Shown here in pieces: positions 3,414-59,537 of a stretch of DNA of 64,000 nt. This DNA comes from Marinobacter sp. (lineage in GTDB: Bacteria; Pseudomonadota; Gammaproteobacteria; Pseudomonadales; Oleiphilaceae). Each line of letters starts with the position of its first letter. Position 1 is the stretch's first letter. The DNA lies in assembly GCA_022565395.1 (NCBI GenBank), contig JAIUMV010000001.1:62001-126000 (forward strand), in the 5' to 3' direction. The notes under the pieces were generated by a model, which was not told the origin of the DNA, made no database searches, and saw nothing but the letters and a program-made list of their open reading frames with translations. The translations under genes were made by a program, and so were the position numbers.

Positions 3414-4208
3414 TCACTGCGCCTCTGCTTTGACTTGCATGGTTTCCGCCAGCAAATCGTCAAGTAATCGACGATAGGCTCTTACACCATGAGTGTCACG
3501 GTCATAGGCGCTGGGCACAACCCCCGCCTGACTGGCATCGCGAAACTTGGTATCGACAGGGACAGCAAACCGCCAGAGGTGGTCCGGATAAGTTTTGCGC
3601 AGGGTATTCAAGCTCTGTACCGACGCCTGGGTGCGGCGATCGAACATGGTGGCAACAACGGTGTAGGGAATGGCCTTGCGCTGGGAGCGCATGATCATGG
3701 CAAGCGTGTTAAGCATACGATCCAGGCCCTTGAGCGCCAGGAATTCCGTTTGTACTGGCAGAATCAGGTGCTGGGCCGCCGCCAGGGCGTTAACCATCAG
3801 CACACCCAGGGTCGGCGTGTTATCCAGCAGGGCGTAGTCGTAATCATCCCAGACCTGGGCCAGCCCGCGGGAGACAATCAGCCCCATGCCCTCGACACCG
3901 ATCATTTTACGCTCAAGGGTAGCCAGCGCCGCACTGGCTGGCAGCAGGTCAACACCGGCACAACTGGTGGGCTGTATCAGGCTTCGGGTCAGCCCGGCGG
4001 GCACCTGTCCCTGATGCTGAAAAAGGTCAAAGGCGCTTTTCTGCACGTGATCCGGGTCCAGCCCGAACCAGCTGGTAAGAGAGCCATGAGGATCAAGATC
4101 AACCACCAGTACCCGCTTGCCCTTTTCGGCCAACAGGCCCGCCAAAGCCGCCACACTGGTGGTCTTGCCTACACCACCCTTCTGGTTGGCCACAGCCCAT
4201 ATTCGCAC
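3414..4208 (-). CDS. parC: ParC, ParA-family ATPase for polar chemotaxis arrays
   Basis: A 264-residue ParA/MinD-type ATPase. The deviant Walker A motif is at the very N-terminus (NQKGGVGKTT, residues 8-17); VLVVDLDPHGSL follows as the switch I region and DYALLDNTPTLGVL as Walker B. There is no DNA-binding N-terminal extension, unlike plasmid ParA. It lies between motD and parP in the chemotaxis operon, where the ParC homologue that positions chemotaxis arrays is found in polarly flagellated gammaproteobacteria. Chromosome-partition ParA is less likely because no parB neighbour is present. The 53 bp gap to parP and shared strand suggest one transcript. Confidence 0.86.
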   Translation of the reverse strand: MRIWAVANQKGGVGKTTSVAALAGLLAEKGKRVLVVDLDPHGSLTSWFGLDPDHVQKSAFDLFQHQGQVPAGLTRSLIQPTSCAGVDLLPASAALATLERKMIGVEGMGLIVSRGLAQVWDDYDYALLDNTPTLGVLMVNALAAAQHLILPVQTEFLALKGLDRMLNTLAMIMRSQRKAIPYTVVATMFDRRTQASVQSLNTLRKTYPDHLWRFAVPVDTKFRDASQAGVVPSAYDRDTHGVRAYRRLLDDLLAETMQVKAEAQ

Positions 4209-4335
4209 AGTGCTTCACTCCCCTGCCACAACCCACGCGCCTTGCCGGGCAAAGCGGCAACTTATTGCCAGCCCGCCGGTAAATCCGCCTATGAAACAAA
4301 GACTATTCAGGATTCATGCCAGAGATAGCGGGTCT

Positions 4336-5118
4336 TTACCGGATCGCGCTGCGGATACCGGGATCGCGGGCAATGACCAACACCACCCGGCGATTACGGT
4401 TGCGCCCTTCCAGCGTGTCATTGCGGGCCACCGGTTGAAACTCACCATAGCCTATGGCGGCCATCCGTGCCGGGTCAACACCGTTGATGGCCAGCATACG
4501 CACAACCGCAGCCGCCCGGGCTGACGACAGCTCCCAATTGGATGGAAAGCGCGGCGTGTTGATGGGCAGGTCATCGGTAAAACCCTCAACCCGGATAGGA
4601 TTGTCGCGATCCTTCAGGACAACGGACAGGCGCTCGATGATGTCAAAGGCGTCGTAGTGAGGCTCGGCATCACCGCCACCAAACAGTAGGCTGTTGCGCA
4701 GGCTGATTTCTATCCAGCGCTCCTCTCTGGCAACCGTCACCACCCCACGGTAGATCAAATCATCGAAGGCTTCTTCAAGCTGGATGGCAATATCATGCAT
4801 GATCTCACCCCGATCCATCACCACACCTTCCCGCTGGCCGGGTGCCTGCATCACGGGATCAGGGAAGATCTGGTCAACGGGATAATCCAGTGGCATGACC
4901 GGTTGCTCGCCAATAGGCACCGGCTGCAATGAACGTTGCGGCACGTTGAACACGCCACTGAGAGTCTCTGACAGGACCTTGTACTTGCCTTCATTCACGG
5001 AGGAGATGGCGTACATCACCACAAAAAAACCAAACAACAGCGTGATGAAATCCGCGTAGGAGATCAGCCACCGTTCCCGGTTGTGGAGATCATCTTCCTG
5101 CCTCTGTCGCCGCCTCAT
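4336..5118 (-). CDS. motD: Flagellar stator protein MotD (MotB family)
   Basis: A 260-residue MotB-type stator subunit. It has a short basic cytoplasmic N-terminus, one transmembrane helix carrying the essential Asp (D23 in WLISYADFITLLFGFFVVMYA), a periplasmic plug-like segment and a C-terminal OmpA-type peptidoglycan-binding domain (about residues 130-255, with VEGFTDDLPI and ELSSARAAAVVRML). It forms ion-conducting stator units with MotC. It sits 20 bp downstream of motC. MotCD is the second stator pair of pseudomonads; only this pair is in the window, so MotAB may be elsewhere or absent. Confidence 0.93.
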   Translation of the reverse strand: MRRRQRQEDDLHNRERWLISYADFITLLFGFFVVMYAISSVNEGKYKVLSETLSGVFNVPQRSLQPVPIGEQPVMPLDYPVDQIFPDPVMQAPGQREGVVMDRGEIMHDIAIQLEEAFDDLIYRGVVTVAREERWIEISLRNSLLFGGGDAEPHYDAFDIIERLSVVLKDRDNPIRVEGFTDDLPINTPRFPSNWELSSARAAAVVRMLAINGVDPARMAAIGYGEFQPVARNDTLEGRNRNRRVVLVIARDPGIRSAIR

Positions 5119-51780: not shown

Positions 51781-51807
51781 TCAGCTGCCCTGTAGAGGAC
51801 AATGACA

Positions 51808-53016
51808 ATGTATCTGGAAATCCCGAAAAAACTGAAGCCGGTCATTCACCAGGCCAAACAGGTGGCCAATGAGGTATTCCGCCCCATCTCGCGCAAGTAT
51901 GACCGCGCTGAGCACAGCTATCCCAAAGAACTGGATATGTTCGCCTCCATCATGGATGGCATGAATGACGGCTCAGACGAGGGTGCAGGCGCTGGCAAGC
52001 TGGCACGCGCCGCCAATGGCGAAGAGGGCTCCGGTAACCGCAATGGCACCAACATGCGTACCGTATTGGGGCTGACCGAGCTGTGCTGGGGTGATGTCGG
52101 GCTGGCCCTGTCCATTCCACGCCAGGGGCTGGGTAACTCCGCCATCGCCGCAGTCGCTAACGAAGAGCAACTGGCACGCTTCGGCAATACCTGGGCGGCC
52201 ATGGCCATTACCGAGCCCGGCGCTGGCTCCGACAGTGGCGCCATTCGCACCACAGCCACTCTGGACGGCGACCACTATGTACTGAACGGAGAAAAAATCT
52301 ACGTCACAGCGGGCGACCGGGCGGACGCTGTGGTGGTCTGGGCCACCCTGGACCGCAATCTGGGTAAAGCGGCTATCAAGTCCTTCGTGGTGGAAAAAGG
52401 CACCCCCGGCATGACGCTGGAACGACTGGAGAAAAAGTTGGGTATCCGTGCCTCTGACACCGCCGCCTTCCGCTTTGAGAACTGTCGTGTACCGAAGGAG
52501 AATCTGCTGGGTGACCCGGAAGTCAGCGTTGACAAGGGCTTTGCCGGCGCTATGCAGACCTTCGACAACACCCGTCCGGTCGTCGCCGGCATGGCTATTG
52601 GTGTGGCCAGTGCTGCGCTGGAAAAAACCCGGGAGCTGCTGAAACGGGCTGGCGTGGACCTGGGTTATCAGCTGCAAACCTGGAGCCAGTCTGCAGTGGC
52701 CCGAGAGCTTCAGCTGCTTGAAGCCGAACTGGAGGCCGCCCGGCTGCTGACCCTGAAAGCCGCCTGGATGGCAGACAACGGCCAGCCCAACTCCAAAGAA
52801 GCGTCTATCGCCAAAGCCAAAGCTGGACGCGTGGGCAACCAGATCACCCTGCGCTGCGTGGAGCTCTGCAGCAGTCTGGGCTTCAGCGAAATGGAGTTGT
52901 TGGAGAAGTGGGCCAGGGACTCGAAAATCCTTGATATTTTCGAGGGAACCCAGCAAATTCAGCTTTTGATCATCGCCCGCCGGTTGCTGGGCAAATCATC
53001 CGCTGAATTGAAATAA
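51808..53016 (+). CDS. Acyl-CoA dehydrogenase
   Basis: A 402-residue flavin enzyme that introduces a 2,3-double bond into acyl-CoA. FAD/substrate motifs include WAAMAITEPGAGSDSGAIRTTA and YVLNGEKIYVTAGDRAD; the C-terminus has VELCSSLGFSEMELLEKWARDSKILDIFEGTQQIQLLIIARRLLG, with the catalytic-type Glu in FEGTQQI. An Asn/Gly-rich insertion (GMNDGSDEGAGAGKLARAANGEEGSGN) near residue 50 is uncommon. Two ATGs are possible (51802 and 51808); the second is better spaced from GAGG. It follows a homologue that lacks the Glu, so the two likely work together; substrate unknown. Confidence 0.9.
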   Translation: MYLEIPKKLKPVIHQAKQVANEVFRPISRKYDRAEHSYPKELDMFASIMDGMNDGSDEGAGAGKLARAANGEEGSGNRNGTNMRTVLGLTELCWGDVGLALSIPRQGLGNSAIAAVANEEQLARFGNTWAAMAITEPGAGSDSGAIRTTATLDGDHYVLNGEKIYVTAGDRADAVVVWATLDRNLGKAAIKSFVVEKGTPGMTLERLEKKLGIRASDTAAFRFENCRVPKENLLGDPEVSVDKGFAGAMQTFDNTRPVVAGMAIGVASAALEKTRELLKRAGVDLGYQLQTWSQSAVARELQLLEAELEAARLLTLKAAWMADNGQPNSKEASIAKAKAGRVGNQITLRCVELCSSLGFSEMELLEKWARDSKILDIFEGTQQIQLLIIARRLLGKSSAELK

Positions 53017-53023
53017 GGGCCTG

Positions 53024-54025
53024 ATGTTTACCATCAACCGCGAGAACCTGCGCAAGAGCCACCAGCAGGTCTGGCTCATCATCGACTTCATGATGCTGGG
53101 CCTGCTGGCGCTCAATCTGACGCTGATCATTTTCGATTCCGTGTATGGCTTCGCGGCCATTCAGGCTTTCTTTGCTGAACGCGCGCCCGACTTTGCGGCC
53201 TTTTATCAGCCTGTACACGACAACTTCATTTTCTACGACCTGATTTTCGTCGCCATCTTTCTGACGGAATTTGCCATCCGCTGGGTCTACGCAATCACCA
53301 CACGCCAGTATGCCCGCTGGTATTTCTACCCGTTCATCCACTGGTACGATCTGGTGGGCTGCATACCCATTGGCACCCTGCGTTTCCTGCGGATACTACG
53401 GGTGGTCAGCATTGCCTATCGGTTGCACAAGTACGGCATTATCGACTTTACCCAGACCCGGCTATTCCAGTTCCTCAAATTCTACTATGAGGCCTTCCTG
53501 GAGGAGCTCTCCGACCGCATCGTGATCAAGGTACTGTCCGGTGTACAGGAAGAGGTTGCCCACGGCTCACCTCTGGTGGAGCGCATTCGCCACGACATAT
53601 TGCTGCCGCGACGAAAAATGATCACAGACTGGGTGTCCGGGCGCGTGGCGGAAGCCGCTGCGGAGGGTTATGTGCCCAACCGGGGGGCCTTGCGGGTTTA
53701 CCTGGAACAACGAGTGGATCGCGCCTTGCGTCAGAATGTGGAGCTCAGCCGCCTGAAATTTCTGCCCATCGTCGGCCCCACCATACAGGACACACTGGAA
53801 AGCGCCGTGGGAGATATAGTCGCAGAAGTTATCCACCAGATCCTTGATGATCTGGCCTCAGCGCGCAACCACGACTTTATCGAAGATATCGTCAACGTCT
53901 TCATAAAAGACGAGTTCATAGAAGAACACGAGGCCGGCAACCAGGAGCTGATACAACTTATTATCGAAGTACTCGATGCCGTCAAAGCCCAGGTCAGTGT
54001 GAAGCGCTGGCGTCAGGCGCTATAG
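53024..54025 (+). CDS. Voltage-sensor-like membrane protein without pore domain
   Basis: A 333-residue protein whose first 138 residues resemble the S1-S4 module of ion channels: S1 about 16-38, S2 about 68-92 with E82 and R86 (FLTEFAIRWVYA), S3 about 100-117 with D109, and S4 with Arg at 120, 123, 126 and 133 (RFLRILRVVSIAYRL). No S5-pore-S6 follows. Instead about 195 soluble, charged helical residues extend to the C-terminus. The start is 7 bp after the acyl-CoA dehydrogenase stop, so cotranscription is likely. Function is not known; voltage sensing is an inference from the S4 pattern. Confidence 0.65.
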   Translation: MFTINRENLRKSHQQVWLIIDFMMLGLLALNLTLIIFDSVYGFAAIQAFFAERAPDFAAFYQPVHDNFIFYDLIFVAIFLTEFAIRWVYAITTRQYARWYFYPFIHWYDLVGCIPIGTLRFLRILRVVSIAYRLHKYGIIDFTQTRLFQFLKFYYEAFLEELSDRIVIKVLSGVQEEVAHGSPLVERIRHDILLPRRKMITDWVSGRVAEAAAEGYVPNRGALRVYLEQRVDRALRQNVELSRLKFLPIVGPTIQDTLESAVGDIVAEVIHQILDDLASARNHDFIEDIVNVFIKDEFIEEHEAGNQELIQLIIEVLDAVKAQVSVKRWRQAL

Positions 54026-54080: not shown

Positions 54081-55571
54081 ATGACAACAACACTCGACAT
54101 GCCACTGCATTACCGTTCCGCAGGCGACCTGCTGAACGCACTGGCAACACTGCAGCTCTCCAGCGAGACGCTGATGGAAGCTACCCTGGCCCGACTCGAA
54201 GAGGTCAACAGCAAGGTCAACGCCGTCGTCAGCTATGATCGCGAGCAAGCGCTGGCTGCAGCCCGTGCTGCCGATGAGCAACGAGAGCGCGGCGATACCC
54301 TTGGCCCACTGCACGGCCTGCCACTGACCCTTAAAGACACCTGGGAGGCGCCGGGCTTCCCTTGTACCGCTGGCGCTCCGGCACTCAAAGAATACCGCCC
54401 CGAACAACCCGCCGATGTGGTCCAACGGTTGACCGAGGCTGGCGCTATTATCATCGGTAAAACTAATGTCCCCCTTTATGCCAGCGATATTCAGACCTAT
54501 AACAAACTCTTCGGCTACACCCGTAACCCGTATAACCCAGAGCGGACGTCCGGCGGGTCCTCAGGCGGTGCAGCGGCAGCCCTGGCGGCGGGTATTACCA
54601 GCCTGGAGGTAGGGAGTGATTTGGCCGGGTCCATCCGCACGCCGGCGCACTTTTGCGGCGTGTTTGGTCACAAGCCCAGCCGCGACCTGATTTCACTACG
54701 GGGCCATATTCCCGGACCGCCTGGTAGCATGACCCAACCCGATCTGGCAGAAGCCGGCCCCATGGCCCGCAGCACCGCTGACCTGATCATGCTTTTGGGG
54801 GTGATCGCCGGGCCACGCCGGCAGGACGAACGAAGCTGGGCGCTCAGTCTGGCACCCACCAGCCTCAACAGCCTGCGGCAGGCGCGGGTCGGTCTCTGGC
54901 TGGAAGACCGGCACTGTCCCATCGATGACGAGCTTTTTCACGCCTACCGGCACTTTGGCGACACCCTTGCTGCACAAGGCGCCGCAGTGCACGACGCCAA
55001 CCACCCATTACTGGACCTCGACAGGATTATGCCGGCCTACTTCAACCTGCTGGGCACGCTGCTGAGCACCGGTATGAAGCCTGCCCAGCGCCGCCAGATG
55101 CGGTGGGTAGGTCGCCTGGAGCCATGGCTGAAACACCTCACTACCATGACTGTCGGCACCGGCGACTACGCCCGCGGGGTCAATCAGAGCGTTCATGAGC
55201 TGGCGCAATGGCACGAACAGCGGGAAAAGATGCGCTGGCAGATCGAGGAGCTGTTTCAGGACATTGACGTGTTGCTGTGCCCGGTCACACCAACAACGGC
55301 TATTCCCCACGACCATTCGCACCCCTTCTTCAACCGCAAAATCAAGGTCAATGGCCAGCCTCGGCCCTATATGGATCAGTTCTGCTGGATCGCCCTGGCC
55401 ACCCTGCTTGGACTGCCCGCAACCTCGGTACCCATCGGCCGCACCAAAGAAGGCCTGCCCTATAACATTCAGGTGATTGGCGCTCCCGGCATGGATTTAA
55501 CCACACTGAAGTTTTCAAGGTTACTGGAGGAGAAAGGACTGGCCGGGTTCAAGGCCCCAGAGGGTTTCTGA
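54081..55571 (+). CDS. Amidase (amidase signature family)
   Basis: A 496-residue amidase with the Ser-cisSer-Lys triad: K85 (PLTLKDTWE), S160 (TSGGSSGGAAAA) and S184 (GSDLAGSIRTPAHFCGVFGHKPS). It hydrolyses amide bonds of small molecules; GatA is unlikely because gatB/gatC are not adjacent and the C-terminal half differs. The region MPAYFNLLGTLLSTGMKPAQRRQM and the C-terminus match stand-alone hydrolases (fatty-acid amide or aryl amidase type). It is 55 bp after the voltage-sensor-like gene and on the same strand as the acyl-CoA dehydrogenases. Confidence 0.9.
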   Translation: MTTTLDMPLHYRSAGDLLNALATLQLSSETLMEATLARLEEVNSKVNAVVSYDREQALAAARAADEQRERGDTLGPLHGLPLTLKDTWEAPGFPCTAGAPALKEYRPEQPADVVQRLTEAGAIIIGKTNVPLYASDIQTYNKLFGYTRNPYNPERTSGGSSGGAAAALAAGITSLEVGSDLAGSIRTPAHFCGVFGHKPSRDLISLRGHIPGPPGSMTQPDLAEAGPMARSTADLIMLLGVIAGPRRQDERSWALSLAPTSLNSLRQARVGLWLEDRHCPIDDELFHAYRHFGDTLAAQGAAVHDANHPLLDLDRIMPAYFNLLGTLLSTGMKPAQRRQMRWVGRLEPWLKHLTTMTVGTGDYARGVNQSVHELAQWHEQREKMRWQIEELFQDIDVLLCPVTPTTAIPHDHSHPFFNRKIKVNGQPRPYMDQFCWIALATLLGLPATSVPIGRTKEGLPYNIQVIGAPGMDLTTLKFSRLLEEKGLAGFKAPEGF

Positions 55572-56515: not shown

Positions 56516-58252
56516 TCACCGGGGTTGCAAGTTTGATCGCAAGGCAAGTTCGTGATCAGGCGCAGGGGTCGGCCGGGTAACCTGGTCATGGGTGCGCGCT
56601 GACGCCGGCCGGGTCAACTGTTCCGCCAACCGAGCGAAGTGGGTCTGGAAAGCAGCCAGGGTCCATTGGCCGTAGATGGTATGTCCACCTTCATAAGCCT
56701 GCTGTTGATACTCCTCGTAAGTCGTCACGTAGCCCATGTAGTCGTTACAGTAAGTGCAGATCAATACCTGCTCAATACCTGAAGCCTGAAGTCGCGCCCG
56801 TACCGTATCACGCACCCGTCGCCCCGCGATGGTGGTGAATTCCCCAGGACAGCACAGAATTGCAAGCTTACCCAGCGTGACAATCTGCAACGGCAACACC
56901 GTCGGTACCATGGCACTTTGCCGCACCGCACCGGCACGCACCTGGCGTTTAAGCTCACCGACCAGTTGGTCAGCAAAGCCAGGCAGGGGTAGCTTGTCAA
57001 AAGGCCGACCCAGTATGTATTTGCGCCCGCTCTCCATGAGAATGTCCTTGGCGCCCTGAGCGGCGTACAGTCGCTCAATGTATTCACGCCTGGACTGACT
57101 GTAACCATGCAAGCGGCCCATACGCCGAGACTTCACCCTACGGGCGATCTGCTTTGCCCCGGCCACCAACAGACCCGGCATGCCGGGACCGTCAACCGGC
57201 GTACCTGCAAAAAAAGCCACACCGTGGCAGGGTTCGCTGGTAAAGGCCTCGTGCTCACCATTGGCGTAGGCGGGATCTGCCCTCACGTTAGCGAAGTCAA
57301 CGTAGGTCAGTATCGCATCCGTACGACCATGCAGACTCATCACCGGTGGCAAATCCAACAGCCCCAACGCGAAACGGCTCTGCCGCTCCCCGTTCTCGCG
57401 GGCATAACGGTATTCCGCCTCACCTTTCAGCGCCATGCGTCGGCCGTAAGCACCCGGGCCCTGCTCATGAGGTGATACGTCCCCCGCCGTTGCCTGAGCA
57501 AAAATGGCAACCGGATGCTCATTACCTGCATTGACCAACGCAGTTTCAGCGTGACGGGCAGCATAGCCTTTGTTGTCACCGTCATGACGGTGCAACCGGC
57601 TACTGAGACAGGTGGCATGTACGCCAAACAGGGACAATAGCGCATTTGCCTGACCACCCTGACGCACCGCCAGTACCGACATCGTACGATCCAGCGCCCG
57701 CTGTGTCTGGGTGGGTGGCTGGGGAATAACATCCGGATTACGATTGTAAGCGGCAAGGGAGCGATTCCAGGCGACCGGTATCTCCTCACCCAAAACCCCT
57801 TGATGCAAATCCAGGTCAGCCGGCACCGCTGTCGTCTGGGCTACCCGCAATGCTGCGCAGGCCGCCACCACAACGCGAGCCAGGTGCTCAGGCTGAAATC
57901 CCGGCGTGACCAGATTATACAACACATCATGGGAGCAACCGCCGGGGCCTGAATGGGTGTGGGTACAGGTCAGCACCAGTCGCGCTTCATCAAACCCGTC
58001 CCCCGCCTGCACCCGCAACTGCGCGCAGACGCCCTCCCGCATGGCATGGGTGACATATCCCAGATCCAGGCAGCAGAACCAGAGTGCTTTACCTTCCGTA
58101 TCTTCGATGTAGAGCGCTCGAGCATGCAGGGGTGTCTGCTGCGCTGAACCTTGATGTGCGGGCTGGCCGTAGCCATGCATGGCGAAGCCCCGCGGCGGAA
58201 TATCGATCTCATGGAGCCCCCACCCAATCTTATATGCAGTTCCACCCCTCAT
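56516..58252 (-). CDS. Neutral/alkaline ceramidase-like hydrolase, no signal peptide
   Basis: A 578-residue protein matching the catalytic domain of neutral ceramidases: YKIGWGLHEIDIPP start, Zn-ligand motif LTCTHTHSGPGG (H98, H100), nucleophile S260 in QATAGDVSPH, and the C-terminal PGEFTTIAGRRVRDTV and YEGGHTIYGQWTLAAF. Ceramidases cleave the amide of ceramide. The start at 58252 fits the family N-terminus and follows an AGGATGAGG; the frame reaches 58537 but would overlap the divergent Hpt-HD-GYP gene. There is no signal peptide and the Ig-like C-terminal domain of secreted ceramidases is missing, so it may be cytoplasmic and act on other N-acyl compounds. Confidence 0.85.
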   Translation of the reverse strand: MRGGTAYKIGWGLHEIDIPPRGFAMHGYGQPAHQGSAQQTPLHARALYIEDTEGKALWFCCLDLGYVTHAMREGVCAQLRVQAGDGFDEARLVLTCTHTHSGPGGCSHDVLYNLVTPGFQPEHLARVVVAACAALRVAQTTAVPADLDLHQGVLGEEIPVAWNRSLAAYNRNPDVIPQPPTQTQRALDRTMSVLAVRQGGQANALLSLFGVHATCLSSRLHRHDGDNKGYAARHAETALVNAGNEHPVAIFAQATAGDVSPHEQGPGAYGRRMALKGEAEYRYARENGERQSRFALGLLDLPPVMSLHGRTDAILTYVDFANVRADPAYANGEHEAFTSEPCHGVAFFAGTPVDGPGMPGLLVAGAKQIARRVKSRRMGRLHGYSQSRREYIERLYAAQGAKDILMESGRKYILGRPFDKLPLPGFADQLVGELKRQVRAGAVRQSAMVPTVLPLQIVTLGKLAILCCPGEFTTIAGRRVRDTVRARLQASGIEQVLICTYCNDYMGYVTTYEEYQQQAYEGGHTIYGQWTLAAFQTHFARLAEQLTRPASARTHDQVTRPTPAPDHELALRSNLQPR

Positions 58253-58451
58253 CACATGCGCCTCATCCTGACACTTCACAAAATCATTGTGGTTATGGAT
58301 ACTACGTCGCCAAGCACTTCGAAACAATGTGTCATGTTCTGTTGGTTGCCGTGCTCGGTGAACCGGCAATAATGCGAGCACCGGGAAATATTCCGGCAAA
58401 GCGTCTAACCTTTGAAAACACGATCGACTACGCGTACCTGAGCGACTGAGC

Positions 58452-59537
58452 ATGAGTGAGAAGCTGACCTGCGATACCTTCTCCGAACTGGATATGGAGA
58501 CACTGGGCGATTTTATGGATGCCTGCCGCGAGGCCATGGAGGAGGCAGAGGCAACACTTGGCCGCCTGATGAGTGATCAAAACGATGGGCAGCTGATTAA
58601 TCAGCTGTTCCGCGCCATGCACTCATTGAAGGGCAACTGCCGCATGGTGTTCCTGACGCCCATGGTAGACCTCTATCACGAGCTTGAGGAGATCGTCGAC
58701 GACTTGCGAAAGGGCCAACCCTATTCCATTGAACTGGGTGATTTCTTTCTCGCCTGCCTTGAGCGCGCCCAAAGCCTTATCCAGAACCTGATCAGTCAGG
58801 GGCAGGCCGATGGTGTTGAATACACATACCTTCTGGAACGAATCCGGAGGGTATACAGCGAGCAGCCCGCCAAACGCCAGGCCCTGTGCAGTCGCCTGTT
58901 GACAGAATTGGCAGGCGAAGTGGAACAGACCTCAGAAGCCGCAGAGGTGCTGCCGCCCTTAGCAAATGACCTGGAACTGATGACACAATTGGCCCGCCAG
59001 CTGGACGGACGCTCCCTTTACCGGGAGGGGCGCACCACCAGTCAATGGGAGCTTTGCCAACTGATGAATCAACTGCTGCCGGAACCTGTGGACCCTGACC
59101 AGCTCAAAGCGGCGGTACTGATGCATGATTTTGGCATGTGCCTGGTACCACCCAAAATTCTCAGCAAGGACGGGGCGCTCGATAAGGAAGAGCGACGCCA
59201 CATCCAGCAACATGTCCATACCGGCACCCAACTGCTGCAGCGCATGGGTTGGGAGGAAGCCGCAAGGATGGTCTATCAGCATCACGAGATGTTTAACGGT
59301 GAGGGTTACCCCGCCCGTAGTCAGGGTGATGCCATTCACCCAGGCGCCCAGATCATCGCTATTGCAGATACGTTCTTTTCACTGACCAATGAGCGCTCTG
59401 ACAGGAGCTACAAAAAGACACTGTTTGGCGCCGTAAAGGAGATCAATGCCAACAGCGGAACCCAGTTCGACCCCGAGCTCGTTGAGCTTTTTAACCAAGT
59501 CATCCGGGACTATTACCTGAAGCCGAAGGCTGGGTAA
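58452..59537 (+). CDS. Hpt-HD-GYP domain signalling protein
   Basis: A 361-residue protein joining an N-terminal Hpt domain (about 1-115, phospho-acceptor H57 in FRAMHSLKGNCRM) to a C-terminal HD-GYP domain (about 175-355: HD in AAVLMHDFGM, then HHEMFNGEGYPA and IIAIADTFFSLT). HD-GYP enzymes hydrolyse cyclic di-GMP. A His-phosphotransfer domain as input suggests control by a phosphorelay rather than by a receiver domain. A short gap of about 200 bp separates it from the divergent ceramidase-like gene; no clear promoter was identified there. Confidence 0.85.
   Translation: MSEKLTCDTFSELDMETLGDFMDACREAMEEAEATLGRLMSDQNDGQLINQLFRAMHSLKGNCRMVFLTPMVDLYHELEEIVDDLRKGQPYSIELGDFFLACLERAQSLIQNLISQGQADGVEYTYLLERIRRVYSEQPAKRQALCSRLLTELAGEVEQTSEAAEVLPPLANDLELMTQLARQLDGRSLYREGRTTSQWELCQLMNQLLPEPVDPDQLKAAVLMHDFGMCLVPPKILSKDGALDKEERRHIQQHVHTGTQLLQRMGWEEAARMVYQHHEMFNGEGYPARSQGDAIHPGAQIIAIADTFFSLTNERSDRSYKKTLFGAVKEINANSGTQFDPELVELFNQVIRDYYLKPKAG

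Follow-up and report, generated by a model that had tools for sequence, protein, structure and literature searches.

Does a bacterial gene that appears to encode a voltage-sensor module without a pore really encode a homologue of channel voltage sensors, and what might such a protein do? This question was raised by an ORF in a 64,000-nucleotide stretch of Marinobacter sp. DNA (the window, meaning the whole stretch analyzed), in which an earlier note had recognized S1-S4 features followed by a soluble helical part instead of S5-pore-S6. The ORF of 333 aa lies on the forward strand exactly where the note had placed it, and Pfam matches bore out the acyl-CoA dehydrogenase and amidase genes said to flank it (Table 1). 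The sensor gene starts 7 bp after the end of the acyl-CoA dehydrogenase gene, with a putative ribosome-binding site 4 nt 5' of its ATG that overlaps the stop codon of the dehydrogenase gene, and the amidase gene follows after 55 bp. The acyl-CoA dehydrogenase and sensor genes are likely co-transcribed in the window, a pairing that is not kept across genera. Elsewhere in the window, positions 56516-58537 (-) encode a homologue of neutral/alkaline ceramidases (PF04734, E 5e-88), here in a marine gammaproteobacterium. In single-sequence searches, the window protein gave no above-threshold Pfam match and no NCBIfam match, and a search of PDB sequences yielded nothing useful; when the family profile was searched against the PDB, helical matches at chance level were all that was obtained, and no relative of known structure was found.

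Table 1 Positions in the window of the sensor gene, its predicted segments and its neighbours
Feature	Position	Strand	Residues	Basis
Acyl-CoA dehydrogenase gene	51802..53016	+		Pfam
AAGGG, possible ribosome-binding site	53015..53019	+		Read from sequence (putative)
Poreless voltage-sensor-domain protein gene	53024..54025	+	333 aa plus stop	Conserved family
S1	53066..53146	+	15-41	AF2 helix 15-41; conserved D21, N31, D38
S2	53225..53302	+	68-93	AF2 helix 68-93
S3	53330..53371	+	103-116	AF2 helix 103-112
S4	53372..53431	+	117-136	AF2 helix 117-136; R120, R123, R126, R133
Juxtamembrane helix	53459..53560	+	146-179	AF2 helix 146-179; conservation
Remaining soluble helical domain	53561..54022	+	180-333	No Pfam or NCBIfam family
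Amidase gene, 3' of sensor gene	54081..55571	+		Pfam

To describe the sensor part, residues were tallied in an alignment of 35 diverse members with 29-70% identity to the window protein (alignment A1). The residues that had been named from the window alone, E82, D109 and the arginines R120, R123 and R126 at every third position, are indeed present, and conservation among the 35 members is strongest in the columns diagnostic of a voltage sensor. In S2, D72 (35/35) and W87 are invariant, position 79 is F or Y (35/35) and position 82 is E or D (35/35); in S3, W107-Y108-D109, G112 and P115 are invariant (D109 and P115 35/35 each); and in S4, R120 is kept in 34/35 members and R123, R126 and R133 in 35/35 each. 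The charge-transfer residues, F/Y79, E/D82 and D109, are each kept in all 35 members. Conservation peaks in S3 (0.85), followed by S4 (0.70) and the juxtamembrane helix (0.69), and drops to 0.4-0.6 further out. Columns conserved in at least 34 of the 35 homologues make up 31 of the 333 and include all five residues named in the earlier note (hypergeometric p 5e-6, or 1e-4 with the draw limited to charged columns); because the five positions all fall within these 31 columns, the S1-S4 observation is not due to chance. The spacing of D72-F79-E82 in S2 equals that of E226-F233-E236 in Kv1.2, and the S1 pair N31-D38 resembles N25-E32 in NavAb. The S3-S4 segment is very short, with 11 residues from D109 to R120, and the gating charge may therefore be small.

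Homology to channel voltage sensors was examined by profile-profile comparison, independently of the sensor residues picked by eye. When 398 genomes of the phylum were scanned with the family profile, pore-bearing K+ channels were matched as well (E 9e-6 to 3.5e-5) across about positions 61-149, that is, S2 to S4, and these channels carry TVGYGD and PF00520 (5e-22). With hhalign, the full family aligned with 11 K+ channels at a probability of 96.8% (E 2.3e-10), and the S1-S4 part alone as query reached 97.1% (E 6e-11, S2-S4), scores that are favoured by the retrieval of this channel set with the family's own profiles or proteins. Against sodium-channel-like relatives, a comparison set chosen by PF00520 alone, the full family reached 88.7% (E 2.6e-6) in 106 columns over S1-S4, and the S1-S4 part alone 86.9% (E 4e-6, S1-S4). 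Column-shuffled controls, 20 per comparison, gave at most 2.2%, and DUF445, taken as an unrelated control, 1.3%. These data indicate that, as judged from sequence profiles, S1-S4 is homologous to the voltage-sensor domains of K+ and Na+ channels.

The predicted structure points the same way at lower strength. An AlphaFold (AF2) model of residues 1-180, built from a narrow alignment of 67 sequences, mostly from Marinobacter and Alteromonas, placed helices at residues 15-41, 68-93, 103-112, 117-136 and 146-179 with moderate confidence (pLDDT 75, pTM 0.59). Foldseek returned 13 PDB matches for this model, none of them significant at a threshold of E 0.001 (best E 3.5), of which 11 are voltage-sensor proteins, namely KCNQ1, NavAb (six entries), CatSper, the KvAP sensor, SLC9C1 and TPC1. 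The fold proposed earlier is thus partly upheld, in the helices at S1-S4 and the mostly voltage-sensor matches, and partly left weak by the moderate confidence and by E values that all exceed 1; taken together, AF2 and Foldseek are suggestive of a four-helix sensor bundle. The distribution of charges suggests that both termini are cytosolic and that the S1-S2 loop lies outside. The full-length model is weaker (pLDDT 66, pTM 0.38), with NavAb entries again at the top of the Foldseek list, and therefore neither the coupling of S4 to the tail nor the fold of the tail can be read from it.

Following S4, the soluble part of about 195 residues described earlier is present as residues 139-333, which contain no hydrophobic window of membrane length; the best 19-residue mean hydropathy after residue 137 is 1.22, at residue 308. 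The AF2 model predicts this part to be helical. The homologues carry no pore either: intact members, whose open frames are mostly about 330-390 aa with K321, V324 and W329 conserved near the end, stop at about 330 aa without S5-S6. Ion_trans_2 was absent from the listed matches of intact members, and PF00520 gave no match to the window protein and weak matches below the curated cut-off in 8/35 members (best E 0.007). We are highly confident that the anatomy is that of a poreless voltage-sensor homologue. Within the tail, conservation is concentrated in the juxtamembrane helix, where the motif EE-x-SDR has invariant E160, E161 and D164 and near-invariant R165 in the 35 members, and in a few distal residues (P248, G251 and W329 invariant, K321 near-invariant). 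The analysis turned up neither a catalytic motif nor an enzyme family, and the Pfam/NCBIfam matches of the window protein and those listed for the 35 members included no PTEN-like phosphatase or C2 domain. A conservation profile that is highest in S3, S4 and the juxtamembrane helix and falls beyond them would fit a sensor coupled to a variable bundle for protein binding more readily than it would an enzyme. DUF445 (PF04286) was considered as the identity of the tail and rejected at its hhalign probability of 1.3%.

Voltage-sensor-only proteins had been supposed to be rare in bacteria, and this did not hold, as the gene is near-universal in the window's own family and occurs in many other gammaproteobacteria. 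A search with the single protein finds no relatives, whereas a search with the alignment does. Among genomes of the same family, 150 of 163 in the full sample and 135 of the 142 of good quality carry the sensor gene, and of 98 related genomes 58 encode a relative (about 30-71% identity), which in one of them, G093, is a tail-only copy. At the order level, 69/295 genomes gave matches, a few of which are channels, and at the class level about 8 to 9 of 369 genomes remained after removal of chance and fragmentary matches. Matches in two class genomes (L059, L060), to acyltransferase/acyl-CoA synthetase-like fusions, were set aside as chance similarity. By the tblastn criterion at least 549 stretches encode a relative, a count that may include some channels, and viral contigs contain no family members. 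Genera with the family include Marinobacter, Tamilnaduibacter, Vreelandella, Halovibrio, Alteromonas and Acinetobacter. The orthologue of Acinetobacter (L174:4854-5900 (+), WP_001181648 of A. baumannii; L175:3854-4900 (+)) is labelled hypothetical protein or SecA, and the "preprotein translocase subunit SecA" of one record is unsupported by the sequence and apparently wrong. The poreless sensor family is widespread across gammaproteobacteria and un-named, with hundreds of related bacteria carrying it unrecognized.

A second, shorter subfamily of poreless sensors, of about 262 aa, extends this range to Actinobacteria, being encoded in one gammaproteobacterial genome (L170:1387-2172 (-)), in Tsukamurella (L176:3944-4756 (+)) and in Nocardia (L177:about 3992-4852 (+)); its members are either unannotated or labelled hypothetical protein. 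Over 202 columns the subfamily can be aligned with the main family (E 2.7e-17), and its S4 keeps R-x2-R-x2-R-x6-R, the counterparts of R120, R123, R126 and R133. Compared in parts, the sensor alone scored 98.3%, whereas the tail alone reached 30.6% (E 5e-4; at most 2.2% in the shuffled controls); the tail, too, is therefore likely common to both, with a weaker likeness than the sensor. Genome G093 encodes a C-terminal-domain-only homologue of about 180 aa without a sensor (L050:5989-6588 (-)), which may be either a domain that became separate or the remnant of a decayed copy.

Gene neighbourhoods were compared across genera. In Marinobacter, including the window, tamB-tamA and sometimes acyl-CoA dehydrogenase genes precede the sensor gene, which is often followed by an amidase gene; in Alteromonas, the neighbours are genes for a hydroxyacylglutathione hydrolase and a LysM lytic transglycosylase, and cysS (cysteinyl-tRNA synthetase). 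In Acinetobacter, the order is an acyltransferase gene, the sensor gene and minCDE, and in another genus an acyltransferase gene lies two genes upstream. No widely common neighbour emerged as a candidate partner from this comparison; because the neighbours vary between genera, no partner is indicated, and the acyl-lipid genes that recur near the sensor gene form a weak theme only. Two further families were seen at these loci. One, of about 172-186 aa, is encoded directly upstream of the sensor (or tail-only) gene in three lineages (L041:5298-5813 (+), L046:7103-7660 (-), L050:6592-7146 (-)) and the two members compared with Pfam gave no match; the gene upstream of the tail-only copy in L050 is related to those upstream of the sensor in L041 and L046. 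The other, a conserved protein (about 291 aa) that bears the motif HW(K/E)NRKDIPQDIAAVPRAGW (L039:7000-7872 (-), L064:5065-5943 (+), L069:6996-7868 (-)) and has no Pfam match, has its gene immediately 5' of the sensor gene and beside an acyltransferase gene.

What, then, might the protein do? At roughly even confidence, we propose as its most likely role that of a membrane-potential-responsive adaptor or regulator, for which we infer voltage sensing, partner and output. After S1-S4, a predicted cytosolic, all-helical domain takes the place of the channel pore; S4 would shift with membrane potential, the shift would pass via the juxtamembrane helix (EE-x-SDR) to the cytosolic helical bundle, and the bundle would then change its assembly state or bind or release a partner. 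In its logic the protein would resemble voltage-sensing phosphatases or TMEM266, except that its output would be non-enzymatic and consist in protein binding. With a little less confidence than this, we consider that the members may form a prokaryotic family of voltage-controlled effectors in which a channel-type sensor acts on a cytosolic domain, with an ancestry from Gammaproteobacteria to Actinobacteria. The earlier note had offered three options, of which the proton channel is disfavoured by the lack of the S4 tryptophan, while the voltage-controlled effector and the structural relative with a new role were not separated computationally.

In the main rival reading, the sensor fold has been retained as a fixed anchor, that is, a structural membrane anchor or dimerization module that does not respond to voltage within the cell's range and whose tail is a membrane-localized scaffold. 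The large channel superfamily also includes sensor-like domains that are barely voltage-sensitive, and the short S3-S4 hairpin, the presence of only three regularly spaced arginines in S4 and the lack of a significant Foldseek match would be compatible with such a role, as would the tail-only version in G093 (L050), from which the tail may act without the sensor. However, the 35 diverse members keep the charge-transfer residues and the S4 arginines without exception or nearly so, and the distant subfamily has counterparts of R120, R123, R126 and R133. Such conservation would be unnecessary in a passive anchor, and we regard this alternative as rather unlikely.

It is less likely still that the sensor itself is the permeation path, as in an Hv1-type proton (or cation) conductor with a dimerizing tail. 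Like the eukaryotic Hv1/VSOP, the family combines a poreless four-segment sensor and three S4 arginines at regular spacing with a helix predicted to follow shortly after S4. However, mid-S1 carries a conserved Asn, N31 (34/35), at what would be the position of the mid-S1 selectivity Asp of Hv1, and the conserved helical tail of about 195 aa is more than a coiled coil needs. Moreover, the S4 tryptophan (R-x-W-R), which is totally conserved in eukaryotic Hv1 (PMC10377628), is absent, position 122 before R123 being L or F in 35/35 members. The missing tryptophan, and perhaps the Asn in mid-S1, make a proton channel improbable. It is very improbable that the protein is an auxiliary or silent subunit, assembling with a canonical channel of the same cell and modulating it: the window's genome does encode a sodium-channel-like protein (L192, G000:C10) and PF00520 channels are present in most relatives, but G006 (70% complete) has the sensor gene and no PF00520 match, the PF00520 match of G001 is below the curated cut-off and covers the pore part only, and no channel gene adjoins the sensor gene at any locus inspected.

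The proposed adaptor or regulator can be set beside known systems. Bacterial six-transmembrane K+ channels (PF00520 with PF07885; for example L171-L173) share the homologous S2-S4, D-x5-P in S3 and spaced S4 arginines, but run on into S5, the TVGYGD filter and S6, where the poreless family has its soluble helical domain. Bacterial sodium-channel-like proteins (NaChBac/NavAb type; for example L192, encoded in the window's genome) are alike in S1-S4, with NavAb prominent in the Foldseek lists, but they carry a pore, and in the poreless family the S1-S2 loop is longer and the S3-S4 turn much shorter than theirs. In Ci-VSP/TPTE and TMEM266 of eukaryotes, the sensor is likewise coupled to a cytosolic portion rather than to a pore, but the bacterial tail has no phosphatase, PTEN or C2 match, and no PDB sequence match to Ci-VSP/TPTE or TMEM266 was obtained. 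Hv1, voltage-sensing phosphatases and TMEM266 are described as sensors without a classical pore, TMEM266 being a sensor that apparently does not form a channel and whose function is unknown (PMC13095418).

According to a 2023 review, all known prokaryotic voltage sensors are accompanied by S5-S6, as verified by database searches, and Hv channels are absent from bacteria and archaea (PMC10377628). Our search of open-licence papers found no description of a bacterial poreless sensor; the domain is known, and its poreless architecture in bacteria appears to be undescribed. The family contradicts the review's generalization with a gene that is nearly universal in one marine family and also present in Acinetobacter baumannii. 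Bacterial electrical signalling is otherwise explained via channels and proton motive force. Small sensors with soluble tails may also be of use for biophysics and engineered voltage indicators. If functional, the poreless sensors would link membrane potential directly, at the molecular level, to a response in the bacterial cytosol.
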